From Methanobacteriales archaeon HGW-Methanobacteriales-1 (GTDB lineage: Archaea; Methanobacteriota; Methanobacteria; Methanobacteriales; Methanobacteriaceae): a stretch of DNA of 64,000 nucleotides. Shown here one piece after another: positions 17,290-26,551 of the stretch. Made by a program: the position numbers and the translations under genes. Each line of letters starts with the position of its first letter. Position 1 is the first letter of the stretch. The notes under the pieces are model-generated. The model worked only from the letters and a program-made list of their open reading frames with translations, made no database searches and was not told the origin of the DNA. The stretch is taken from the NCBI GenBank assembly GCA_002839705.1, contig PGYO01000009.1, forward strand, positions 62,001 through 126,000. The letters run 5' to 3'.

Positions 17290-19047
17290 ATGAATAAAAT
17301 CAAGGTTTTAATACTAGAAGATGTTCCTTTAGATGCTGAACTTTCTGAGCGGGAGCTAAAAAAAGAAGGACTTGACTTTTTATCGCTTCGGGTTGAAACC
17401 AAAGATGATTTTATTAAAGAAATTACTGAATTTAATCCCAATATAATATTGGCGGATCAATCTTTGCCGCATTTTGATGGGCTCTCTGCTTTGAAAATTG
17501 CTAAGAATAAAACGCCAAATATTCCTTTTATTTTTGTCAGTGGTAAAATTGGAGAAGACTATGGCGTGGAAATGCTCAAAGAAGGTGCGACTGACTATGT
17601 GCTTAAAAATAATCTTACAAAGCTTTCCCATGCGGTTATAAGGGCTTTGAATGAATCTAAAGAGCAAATCAATAGAGAAATTGCTGAAAAATCATTAAAA
17701 GAGAACGAAAAAAAATATAGAACTCTCTTTGAAAAATCTAAAAATCCTATATTTGTTTGTCAGAAAGATGGAACTTTTATTGATTGTAATGATGCCGGTT
17801 TAGAATTTATGGAAAAACCATGCTCTGAAATTATGGGCAATAATATACAAAATTGGGTTAAATTAGCTGATTTTAATAATTTGTTTTCTGAGGAAATTTA
17901 TGTAAATGAACTAGTATTCCAGGTTAATGGCATTGAAAAAATACTGGAAATTACCATTACTCTGGTTGAAATAGGGAAAGAAAAAAACTATTTTTTACAA
18001 GGAAAAGATGTAACTCAACAAAGGCAGGCTGAAAAAGCTCTTAAAAAACAAGGTGAAGAATATAAAGCCATATTTGAGAATACTGGTACTTTATCTGTAA
18101 TTTTTGAAAAAGATACGACCATCTCTTTAGTAAATACTGAATTTGAATTATTTTCAGGATATACCAATAAAGAATTAAAATACAATCGAAAGTGGTTGGA
18201 ATTTGTGGCCAGTGATGATTTGGAAAGGATGGAAGGATACCATCGTATGCAAAGAATAAATCCTTTAGCAATTCCTAAAAACTATGAAGTCATGTTAAAA
18301 AATCGTGAAGGAAAAATTAAGGATTTTTATGCGACTTCTGAAATTATACCTGGTACTGAAAAGGGTATTATATCTTTTATGGATATTAGTGATAGAAAAC
18401 TTGCTGAAAATAAAATTAAGAATTCCCTTCACGAAAAGGAACTTCTTCTAAGAGAAATACATCATCGGGTAAAAAATAATATGCAAATAATATCCACGCT
18501 TTTAACCCTACAATCGGCTCAGATTGATGATCAAAAATTAATTAACCTCTATCAAGAAAGCCAGAATAGGATTCAAGCCATGTCATTAATTCATGAAAAA
18601 TTGTATCAATCTAGAGATATTTCTAAAATAAATCTTAAAGATTATGTCCAAAGCATGGTAAGTGATTTATTATATTCCTATGAAAAAGATAGTCAAGTTA
18701 TAGAGTCTAATCTTGATATTGCTGATGTTTTGATGAGTATAGATACTGCAGTTCCTTGTGGATTAATTATAAACGAACTTATTTCTAATTCATTAAAATA
18801 TGCATTTCCTGATAGAAATGGAACCATAAATGTATATTTTCATAGAATCAATGATTCAGATTATTGTTTATCAATATCTGATGATGGAATTGGCCTTCCT
18901 GAGGATTTAGATATAGAGAAAACCAACTCTTTAGGTCTTCAAATTGTTAACAATCTTATAAATCAACTTGATGGAACATTAAAAATATCAAAACCTTCTA
19001 AATTTGAAATTAGGTTTAAAGAACTTAAATATAAGGAAAGAATGTAA
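17290..19047 (+). CDS. Hybrid REC-PAS-PAS-HisKA_2 histidine kinase
   Basis: 585 residues. An N-terminal receiver domain (about 1-125) has Asp56 in IILADQSLP. Two PAS domains (about 135-255 and 265-375) follow, the second ending MDISDRK. Then come a HisKA_2 region with [14 protein letters not shown] (about 386-400) and a HATPase with [12 protein letters not shown] and DDGIGLPEDL. A receiver at the N-terminus of a kinase implies that it is itself controlled by phosphotransfer, plausibly from the kinase at 15672. It lies between two regulators on the same strand. Confidence 0.88.
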   Translation: MNKIKVLILEDVPLDAELSERELKKEGLDFLSLRVETKDDFIKEITEFNPNIILADQSLPHFDGLSALKIAKNKTPNIPFIFVSGKIGEDYGVEMLKEGATDYVLKNNLTKLSHAVIRALNESKEQINREIAEKSLKENEKKYRTLFEKSKNPIFVCQKDGTFIDCNDAGLEFMEKPCSEIMGNNIQNWVKLADFNNLFSEEIYVNELVFQVNGIEKILEITITLVEIGKEKNYFLQGKDVTQQRQAEKALKKQGEEYKAIFENTGTLSVIFEKDTTISLVNTEFELFSGYTNKELKYNRKWLEFVASDDLERMEGYHRMQRINPLAIPKNYEVMLKNREGKIKDFYATSEIIPGTEKGIISFMDISDRKLAENKIKNSLHEKELLLREIHHRVKNNMQIISTLLTLQSAQIDDQKLINLYQESQNRIQAMSLIHEKLYQSRDISKINLKDYVQSMVSDLLYSYEKDSQVIESNLDIADVLMSIDTAVPCGLIINELISNSLKYAFPDRNGTINVYFHRINDSDYCLSISDDGIGLPEDLDIEKTNSLGLQIVNNLINQLDGTLKISKPSKFEIRFKELKYKERM

Positions 19048-23544: not shown

Positions 23545-25740
23545 ATGGCGAAAGCAAATTTACTGGTAGTAGAAGATGAATTTATCACTGCTATGGATTT
23601 AGAAGAAAGGCTGGAAGAAATGGGATATAATGTACTTAAAATAGTTTCTTCTGGTGAAGATGCTATTAAATTTGCGGCTGAACTTCGTCCTGATTTGGTT
23701 TTAATGGATATAGTTCTACATGGAAACATAAATGGTACTGAAGCTGCTGAGAAGATAAATTCTCTGGAGATACCAGTAATTTTTTTAACGGCCTATAGTG
23801 ATGACAAAACACTCGCTAATGCTAAAAAAAGTAGTCCCTATGGATATATTGTTAAACCCTATGACAGCCCAGTTCTGGAAGTAAGTATAGAATCTGCTCT
23901 TAAAAAATATGCCTCAGATCAAAAAGAAATGGATCGAGTACGACTAAAAGCTATTGAAGAACCACAGTCTAATGAAAATAAAAAAGTGGCATCTAATTCC
24001 AAATCATTAGAAAATCATCCATTAAAAAGCCAGAAAACTAAATTAATGATAGTAGAAGATGAATTTATTACTTCTATGGATTTAAATGATAAATTAGAGG
24101 GAATGGGATATAATGTAGTTACTATGGCTGCATCAGGAAATCAGGCGGTTGAAAGGGCCAAAAAATTCAATCCAGATGTTGTTTTAATGGATATAGTTCT
24201 TCAAGGGGATATGGATGGTATTGAGGCTGCAGATCAAATAGGCCAATTAGGGATACCTGTGATTTTTTTAACAGCCCATGCCGATAAAGAAACTGTAGAG
24301 AGTGCATTAAAAACAGCTCCTTATGGCTATATGATAAAGCCCTTTGATGAAGATAAGCTTCACAGCACATTGGAAATAGCATTGGAAAAAAAAAGATCAG
24401 AAAAAGTTAAATATGAAAAATTAGGTGCTAAAATAAGTTCTAAGCAAGATGAACTGAAGATGGAAAAGACAGGAATCTTTTTTGTTTCTGCAATTTTTAT
24501 CTCGCTGGCTGCTTATGGATTCATAATTAAAGATATGACTTGGTTGGCCTATTTACTTTTTATTCCGGCTTGTTATAACATTTTTTTGTGTATTATAAGC
24601 TTAAAAAAACAAGAAAAACCTATTGAATTCGACAATCCACCTATGGTCAGTATTCTTATTCCAGCACACAATGAGGAAAATACTATTGAAAGATGTGTTG
24701 TGTCTCTTTCTGAAATGGATTACTATTTAAAGGGAGAAAAGAATTTTGAAATAATTGTTATAAATGATGGTTCTACTGATGATACGGGAAAAGTAATGGA
24801 AAATCTAAAAAATAAGGTTGATTGCTTGCGTATTGTCACTAGAAGACCTCCTAGATCAGGTAAGGGTAAAGGTTACGTTTTAAATGACGGAGTTAAAATG
24901 GCCAGAGGGGAAGCTATTGCTGTTTTTGATGCAGATTCCCGGGTTGATAGTGATTTTTTAAATAAGATTATTCCTTACCTTAATGGAGATAATGTGGTGG
25001 GTGTTCAATCCAGGGTTAGAATGTATAATAAAGATAGAAATCTTCTTACCGCCATGCAAGAAGCTGAATTTGCTATATTTGGGAATGTAATTTTAAGATC
25101 CCGTGATATAATGGGCAAAAATGGATTCTTAGGAGGTAATGGTCAGATAACCACCCGAAAAGTCATGGAAGAAATTGAGGGATGGGATGGCTTTGCGGTG
25201 ACTGAAGATTTAAATTTAAGCATTAAGCTAATGTTAAAAGGTTATAAAATTCGTTACTGTGGTGAAGCGGAAGTTTGGCAGGAAGCAGTTCCTTTCTGGA
25301 GGCCATTTTTCCGTCAAAGAGTTAGATGGGCCACCGGGAACTTGGAAACTCTTTTTGTGTATTTAGCCCCTATAATTGATGCGGATATTCCAATTTATAA
25401 AAAGATAGATTCCATACAGTATCTTTTCTTCCTTCTATTCATTGCCTTTGTGATGTTAGGATATATAGTAGTTATTTTAGATTTTGGATTAATATACTCC
25501 ATAAAAGTAAATATCCCCCTTGCTATTGGATTATTATCTACTGCTGCGTTTTTTCCCGGTGCTATACTTGGAATTTACCGGGATAAAGGGCGTGGAATTT
25601 TTAGTGCAGTTTTCACATCCATAAAATATTGGGCCTATTGCCTGTATTTGATACCATTGTTTTTTGCGTCTTTTGTGCACATGATTACTCGTAAAGACAG
25701 AACCTGGGCAAAAACTGATCACAGCGGTGATGAGGAATAA
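23545..25740 (+). CDS. REC-REC-glycosyltransferase family 2 fusion (regulated polysaccharide synthase)
   Basis: 731 residues. Two receiver domains come first: residues about 1-120 (Asp55, Lys104) and 165-285 (Asp216, Lys265). Two transmembrane helices (about 311-329, 333-352) lead to a GT2 catalytic domain of the cellulose/poly-GlcNAc synthase type, with Asp408 in VINDGS, DAD at 462-464, TED at 553-555 and QRVRW at 591-595. Three or so C-terminal helices complete the membrane channel. All catalytic signatures are intact. The ATG at 23545 has GGGGTG eight bases upstream; a TTG at 23533 does not. Phosphorylation of the receivers would be expected to gate polymer synthesis at the membrane. Confidence 0.92.
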   Translation: MAKANLLVVEDEFITAMDLEERLEEMGYNVLKIVSSGEDAIKFAAELRPDLVLMDIVLHGNINGTEAAEKINSLEIPVIFLTAYSDDKTLANAKKSSPYGYIVKPYDSPVLEVSIESALKKYASDQKEMDRVRLKAIEEPQSNENKKVASNSKSLENHPLKSQKTKLMIVEDEFITSMDLNDKLEGMGYNVVTMAASGNQAVERAKKFNPDVVLMDIVLQGDMDGIEAADQIGQLGIPVIFLTAHADKETVESALKTAPYGYMIKPFDEDKLHSTLEIALEKKRSEKVKYEKLGAKISSKQDELKMEKTGIFFVSAIFISLAAYGFIIKDMTWLAYLLFIPACYNIFLCIISLKKQEKPIEFDNPPMVSILIPAHNEENTIERCVVSLSEMDYYLKGEKNFEIIVINDGSTDDTGKVMENLKNKVDCLRIVTRRPPRSGKGKGYVLNDGVKMARGEAIAVFDADSRVDSDFLNKIIPYLNGDNVVGVQSRVRMYNKDRNLLTAMQEAEFAIFGNVILRSRDIMGKNGFLGGNGQITTRKVMEEIEGWDGFAVTEDLNLSIKLMLKGYKIRYCGEAEVWQEAVPFWRPFFRQRVRWATGNLETLFVYLAPIIDADIPIYKKIDSIQYLFFLLFIAFVMLGYIVVILDFGLIYSIKVNIPLAIGLLSTAAFFPGAILGIYRDKGRGIFSAVFTSIKYWAYCLYLIPLFFASFVHMITRKDRTWAKTDHSGDEE

Positions 25741-25849: not shown

Positions 25850-26551
25850 ATGAGTTTTTTTAATCCCGATTTGGAAGATGTGAGTCCATTGCAGAGAAAT
25901 CTGCTAAGAGTCATGCGAATATTTCTATTGATTTCAGGCATATATATTTTGATTTTCGGTGGAGCAAATGGTGCAGAGAGGATATTTGGTTTGTTAATTT
26001 TAGTCGCTCTGGCCATAATTAATGCCCCTGCATTTTTTACAGGCAATCATATAAGAGCCATACCCATAGAAATTGAACTATTGTTGTTAATGATGGTTTT
26101 GTTTGAGTTAGTAGGTGGTGATGCTTTAGGCCTCTATGTAAAATTACCACACTATGATAATTTCATGCACTTCATGCTACCCCTTTATGTGGCCTTGATT
26201 GGTATGATGCTGGTTTATACTGCTTATTTCTTTGGAAAACTAAAAGCTTCTCTTTCAGTGATGGCTGGTATAATTGTTTTACTTACCATTGGTCTGGGAG
26301 GAGTTTTAGAAATGGGTGAATATACCTACGACACTTATCTGGCTGATGGGCCTATAGGTGCGATTACAGGAAACACCCAGATGCAGGGTTCACCTACCCA
26401 GGACCCACTGGATGATACTATGAATGACCTATTCACTGATACTGCAGGAGCTATTGTAGGGGCCTTGATTGGAGTATTATTAATCCGGAGATATGAGAAA
26501 GAAGGTGGGCACTGGAAAGTGGCCGATGGGATTTCTAAAATGGGTGGATAG
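25850..26551 (+). CDS. DUF2238/YjdF-like membrane protein
   Basis: 233 residues with about six transmembrane helices. The blocks DNFMHFMLPLYVALIG, GGVLEMGEYTYDTYL and DPLDDTMNDLFTDTAGAIVGALIG match the DUF2238/YjdF family, integral membrane proteins with conserved acidic residues in or near the membrane. GGAG precedes the ATG. It follows the REC-REC-glycosyltransferase by 109 bases on the same strand, so it may be cotranscribed with it and support its envelope function; this is inference. Confidence 0.72.
   Translation: MSFFNPDLEDVSPLQRNLLRVMRIFLLISGIYILIFGGANGAERIFGLLILVALAIINAPAFFTGNHIRAIPIEIELLLLMMVLFELVGGDALGLYVKLPHYDNFMHFMLPLYVALIGMMLVYTAYFFGKLKASLSVMAGIIVLLTIGLGGVLEMGEYTYDTYLADGPIGAITGNTQMQGSPTQDPLDDTMNDLFTDTAGAIVGALIGVLLIRRYEKEGGHWKVADGISKMGG

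Follow-up and report, generated by a model that had tools for sequence, protein, structure and literature searches.

A tandem-receiver membrane glycosyltransferase of Methanobacteriales and its split, kinase-linked relatives in gut methanogens

A synthase gene with two intact receivers

We analysed a window of 64,000 nucleotides from the genome of Methanobacteriales archaeon HGW-Methanobacteriales-1 (contig PGYO01000009.1). It contains a gene for a membrane GT2 synthase with two receiver (REC) domains at its N-terminus (Table 1). Translation of the open reading frame 23545-25740 (+) gives 731 uninterrupted residues. The listed frame begins 12 bases earlier, at TTG 23533; the likeliest start is ATG 23545, with ggggtgcatt before the ATG.

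Table 1. Features of the synthase locus, in positions of the window
Feature	Position	Strand	Basis
REC-REC-GT2 membrane synthase, 731 aa	23545..25740	+	Pfam, orthologs, dN/dS 0.09 vs congener
REC1 receiver, residues 3-122; E10/D11, D55 (23707-23709), T82, K104	23551..23910	+	Pfam, residue table
Variable inter-receiver linker, residues 123-162	23911..24030	+	Relaxed dN/dS 0.375; model pLDDT lowest at 158-161
REC2 receiver, residues 165-288; E171/D172, D216 (24190-24192), T243, K265	24037..24408	+	Pfam, residue table
Predicted continuous helix, residues 269-328, REC2 alpha5 to first TM segment	24349..24528	+	AF2 model
Two N-terminal TM segments, about residues 313-355	24481..24609	+	Hydropathy, model
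GT2 catalytic domain, residues 365-598	24637..25338	+	Pfam; nearest relatives of known structure BcsA and hyaluronan synthase
DAD, residues 462-464	24928-24936	+	GT2 motif
TED, residues 553-555	25201-25209	+	GT2 motif
QRVRW, residues 591-595	25315-25329	+	GT2 motif
Three C-terminal TM segments, residues 629-647, 658-679, 685-715	25429..25689	+	Hydropathy, model
Nearest HisKA_2 kinase (REC-PAS-HisKA_2-HATPase), possible, unproven partner	17290..19047	+	Pfam; 4486 bp upstream of synthase

Pfam finds two Response_reg matches in the protein (148 bits summed, cut-off 30.2) and a PF13641 match at residues 365-598 (103 bits, cut-off 27), together with PF00535 and PF13632. In both receivers the acidic pair, the Thr and the Lys are present, and the phospho-acceptors align at D55 and D216. 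The catalytic residues of DAD, TED and QRVRW are invariant or nearly so across the GT family, and the protein carries the hallmarks of processive membrane GT2 enzymes, namely DxD, TED, QxxRW and flanking transmembrane (TM) helices. An earlier note, made from the letters of this DNA, had claimed two intact receivers (Asp55, Asp216), TM helices and a GT2 synthase with complete motifs in a single protein of this length. Translation, Pfam and the aligned pocket residues bear out the receivers; Pfam, hydropathy, the structural model and the family alignment bear out the synthase.

Compared with the congener G002, dN/dS is 0.105 for REC1, 0.069 for REC2, 0.064 for the TM and GT part and 0.375 for the linker (0.09 for the whole protein). 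Each module is separately constrained by purifying selection, which is relaxed in the linker. The gene is present in a single copy in its own genome, where all else that matches is either a distant GT2 domain or a receiver belonging to another protein.

Distribution and loss of the architecture

The REC-REC-GT2 architecture has been published before. Galperin, Makarova, Wolf and Koonin 2018 (PMC5847659) list REC-BcsA and REC-REC-BcsA, 13 proteins from Methanobacteriaceae, first noted for MTH_548. This class has one or two RECs followed by a PF13641 glycosyltransferase; the window protein has that composition and is a further REC-REC-BcsA member. A literature search found no further paper naming MTH_548 and no experimental work.

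Scanning GTDB genomes with the GT alignment gave 36 family loci, essentially all from Methanobacteriales. Within the phylum, the GT family is found at E<=1e-60 in 55 of 152 genomes and in 11 of 20 genera. Close relatives are confined to Methanobacteriales, except for one contig labelled Bacillales (L091), which bears a Methanobacteriaceae-type cassette and is probably a misbinned MAG contig. No REC-GT2 fusion occurred among the bacterial GT2 loci fetched, in a scan not designed for finding such fusions. Full-length REC-REC-GT2 orthologs are present in a congener (95%), a second genus (75%) and, at 53-55%, a third genus and two more families. The earlier note would have given up its idea had an assembly join left the architecture absent from all relatives; instead, the orthologs span several genera and at least three families. 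One genome with the REC-REC form also has a receiver-free synthase paralog (L089:1013-2362).

In 30 of the 36 scanned loci the next gene after the synthase encodes about 196-211 aa with a single TM segment at the N-terminus, and it often overlaps the synthase stop by 4 bp. This gene (L103:9302-9925 and equivalents) has no Pfam match. Only 4 of 61 genomes have it, in each case together with the GT or a remnant of the GT, and it is a candidate synthase subunit. The gene downstream of the synthase in the window (25850-26551) was rejected as a partner: it is adjacent only within the genus and unlinked elsewhere.

Several genomes have lost the synthase or carry it broken. In G022, which we take to be M. 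smithii PS, the synthase cassette is deleted, and about 42 C-terminal GT codons and the downstream membrane-protein gene are left beside purA (L157). In G047, presumably M. thermautotrophicus deltaH, the MTH_548 gene falls into three broken frames (L065); the published example could therefore be a fragment or contain sequence errors. A frameshift or internal stop breaks the gene in G080 (L190) and G001 (L066 and L079). Such repeated loss or breakage shows the synthase to be dispensable.

Split cassettes in gut relatives

Gut Methanobrevibacter and Methanosphaera encode the first receiver in an intact gene of its own, as a rule 5-15 bp upstream, in a cassette that also contains one or two HisKA_2 kinases. 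The usual gene order is a kinase, sometimes a second kinase, the separate REC and a single-REC-GT2. Across the 47 loci compared, a same-strand HisKA_2 kinase lies within about 5 kb in 29 and a separate REC just upstream in 26, counts that may be off by one or two, since genes were called as mechanical ORFs and scored with small purpose-built profiles. The available parts of PMC5847659 make no mention of split kinase-REC-pseudoREC-GT2 cassettes, and this arrangement, of which we found no description, is apparently the part not reported before.

Methanobacterium-like and Methanothermobacter-like genomes encode fused REC-REC proteins with both receivers complete, and the adjacent separate REC is likewise complete in all split cassettes with sequence covering the pocket. 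The fused receiver of the split cassettes has lost the acidic pair, in most cases the switch Thr and in some the phospho-Asp or the Lys; these pseudo-receivers retain conserved residues despite the lost pocket. REC2 of the window protein aligns with this domain. G018 and G028 show an intermediate state, a fused REC2 with Asp changed to Ser, and G015 has one receiver only, with no separate REC nearby.

In the GT tree, the split forms make up one clade (99/98) among the fused forms. AU tests, with marginal p-values on an alignment of only 126 columns, accepted the separate REC as REC1 (p 0.30) and disfavoured it as REC2 (0.036), and accepted the pseudo-REC as REC2 (0.32) and disfavoured it as REC1 (0.045). 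The split forms are best read as the product of one fission of an ancestral REC-REC-GT2, the direction of the change being beyond proof from a short-domain tree.

One Methanobrevibacter genome has a synthase of 1396 aa (L189:5007-9197) in a kinase-REC-kinase-REC cassette, with about 850 repetitive, coiled-coil-like residues ahead of the degenerate REC and the GT. An ORF of 1491 aa in L110 was discarded, being a masked stretch of N and not a gene.

Kinase linkage and second messengers

Pfam confirmed HisKA_2 in those cassette kinases that were checked. The genomes G023 and G036 encode just one HisKA_2 kinase apiece, and in both it is part of the synthase cassette (chance about 0.5% each). L082, L083 and L085 have the fused form followed downstream by a gene for a short, soluble HisKA_2 protein. 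Kinase-synthase linkage occurs in different arrangements, upstream or downstream. No kinase adjoins the synthase gene in the Methanobacterium-like or Methanothermobacter-like genomes compared, and G006 and L106 keep the REC without a same-strand kinase. The carriers G018 and G028 have no HisKA_2 match in the genome, which leaves room for a different class of kinase or for loss of the circuit. Within the order, HisKA_2 is present in 16 of 18 synthase carriers vs 8 of 31 non-carriers (Fisher 2e-5), a co-occurrence that agrees with the link but to which we give little weight because it is confounded by descent.

The earlier note had also looked to HisKA_2 kinases as the source of phosphate. The cassettes of relatives, where kinase and synthase lie together, favour this link; in the genome of the window no kinase is adjacent, the nearest lying 4.5 kb away. 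We do not call that kinase cognate by proximity, as its position is not significant and is close to chance given the roughly 29 HisKA_2 domains of the source genome.

GGDEF domains are absent from all surveyed synthase-carrier genomes. Two of the 61 genomes were positive, neither of them a carrier, and the same search was positive in 8 of 14 control genomes. Pfam gives no PilZ match in the window protein. Since no GGDEF was found in the surveyed carrier genomes, control of the synthase by c-di-GMP appears unlikely.

Predicted structure and proposed mechanism

AF2 from the single sequence gave a pLDDT of 40.6; the model used here comes from a 45-sequence alignment (mean pLDDT 88.6, pTM 0.84) and is a monomer, which cannot show REC-REC docking. 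It predicts residues 269-328 as one unbroken helix from REC2 helix 5 into TM1. Foldseek matches the enzyme part of the model to BcsA and hyaluronan synthases and the receiver tandem to PleD, whose structure 2v0n is the best solved match to the tandem (E 1e-12 over 310 columns). The archaeal mannosyltransferase 6yv7 is also among the structural matches. The phosphate acceptor of PleD is D1, and D2 serves as an adaptor in dimerisation (PMC8999164).

We consider it reasonably probable that a HisKA_2 kinase acts on REC1, with REC2 as a PleD-like adaptor, and that the membrane GT2 polysaccharide synthase is switched directly in this way. A HisKA_2-type kinase would phosphorylate REC1 at D55; phosphorylated REC1 would dock with REC2, in a dimer or in the same chain, like D1 and D2 of PleD; and REC2 would relay the change to the synthase along the extended alpha5-TM1 helix. 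The cassettes of gut Methanobrevibacter and Methanosphaera may be a split version of this circuit, made up of one or more kinases, an intact REC encoded on its own and a pseudo-REC-GT2. We infer phosphotransfer, REC docking and the effect on catalysis; for the adaptor role of REC2, which is fully intact in the window protein, we draw on its relatives. The idea of direct functional control of the enzyme is strengthened by the genomic context; telling against it are the genomes in which no kinase adjoins the gene, the two carriers without a HisKA_2 match, the single receiver of G015 and the dispensability of the synthase.

A fuller proposal is more tentative, and we would put it at somewhat below an even chance. 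It holds that REC-REC docking, dependent on phosphorylation, directly switches a processive membrane polymer synthase without a transcription factor or second messenger, and that one lineage of gut methanogens made of this a kinase-REC-pseudoREC-synthase cassette in which the second receiver is a dedicated adaptor.

Alternative readings

The receivers might instead set the localisation, dimerisation or kinase scaffolding of the synthase and leave its catalytic rate unchanged. Archaeal two-component output is mainly protein-protein interaction according to Galperin et al. 2018 (PMC5847659), and the long coiled-coil-like extension in L189 suggests a scaffold role. The predicted continuity of the REC2-TM1 helix, however, suits conformational coupling, and we regard this alternative as unlikely. 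Control of the enzyme could also be genuine and its product different, with single sugars added to a lipid or surface acceptor and no polymer made. PgaC/IcaA, the best curated family, is matched far under its cut-off (150 vs 422 bits), no recognisable polysaccharide-processing genes are conserved beside the synthase, and 6yv7 is itself a structural match. Single-sugar transfer nonetheless seems quite unlikely to us, as QxxRW, TED, the flanking TM helices and the best structural matches, to BcsA and hyaluronan synthase, are what one expects of a processive synthase.

Binding of a small ligand by REC2 or the pseudo-receiver, in place of a phosphorylation relay, is very improbable. A precedent exists in the pseudo-receiver of ShkA, which binds c-di-GMP (PMC7010744), and the residues conserved in the pseudo-RECs after loss of the pocket would fit such a role; against it stand the lack of GGDEF in the surveyed carrier genomes and the intact REC and kinases beside nearly all complete split forms examined (G006 and L106 have the REC and no same-strand kinase). 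An assembly join or a neutral fusion without function would be in keeping with the frequent loss in some relatives and with nothing else. The same architecture in many genomes, single-contig ones included, and a dN/dS of about 0.1 refute it. Direct switching of the synthase by phosphorylation is the reading that we prefer.

Significance and comparison with known systems

The output of most archaeal response regulators is not known, and here it is an identifiable enzyme. The cassettes of gut relatives contain the likely partner kinases, which makes kinase-to-enzyme control testable with few proteins. If the proposal is true, gut and environmental methanogens would have a surface-polymer switch that bypasses transcription and c-di-GMP, and the split forms would be a natural experiment on the conversion of a receiver into a pseudo-receiver adaptor.

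The window protein has the same architecture, domain order and PF13641 output as the archaeal REC-BcsA and REC-REC-BcsA proteins (MTH_548) of PMC5847659, from which it does not itself differ. The closest NCBIfam GT2 model is that of the PgaC/IcaA poly-GlcNAc synthase (TIGR03937), which the protein matches at 150 bits, below the cut-off of 422. The TM layout of PgaC/IcaA is similar; the window protein has receivers added, and no PgaB or PgaD was found near the synthase. With BcsA cellulose synthase the protein shares the GT2 fold, DxD/TED/QxxRW and the TM packing, but it has no PilZ, fewer C-terminal TM helices and N-terminal receivers, and no c-di-GMP synthesis was found in its genome. PleD (REC-REC-GGDEF) has the same tandem fold, in which a phospho-acceptor and then an adaptor receiver control an enzyme directly. 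PleD has a GGDEF output where the window protein has a membrane GT2 synthase, and the second receiver of the window protein is still intact.
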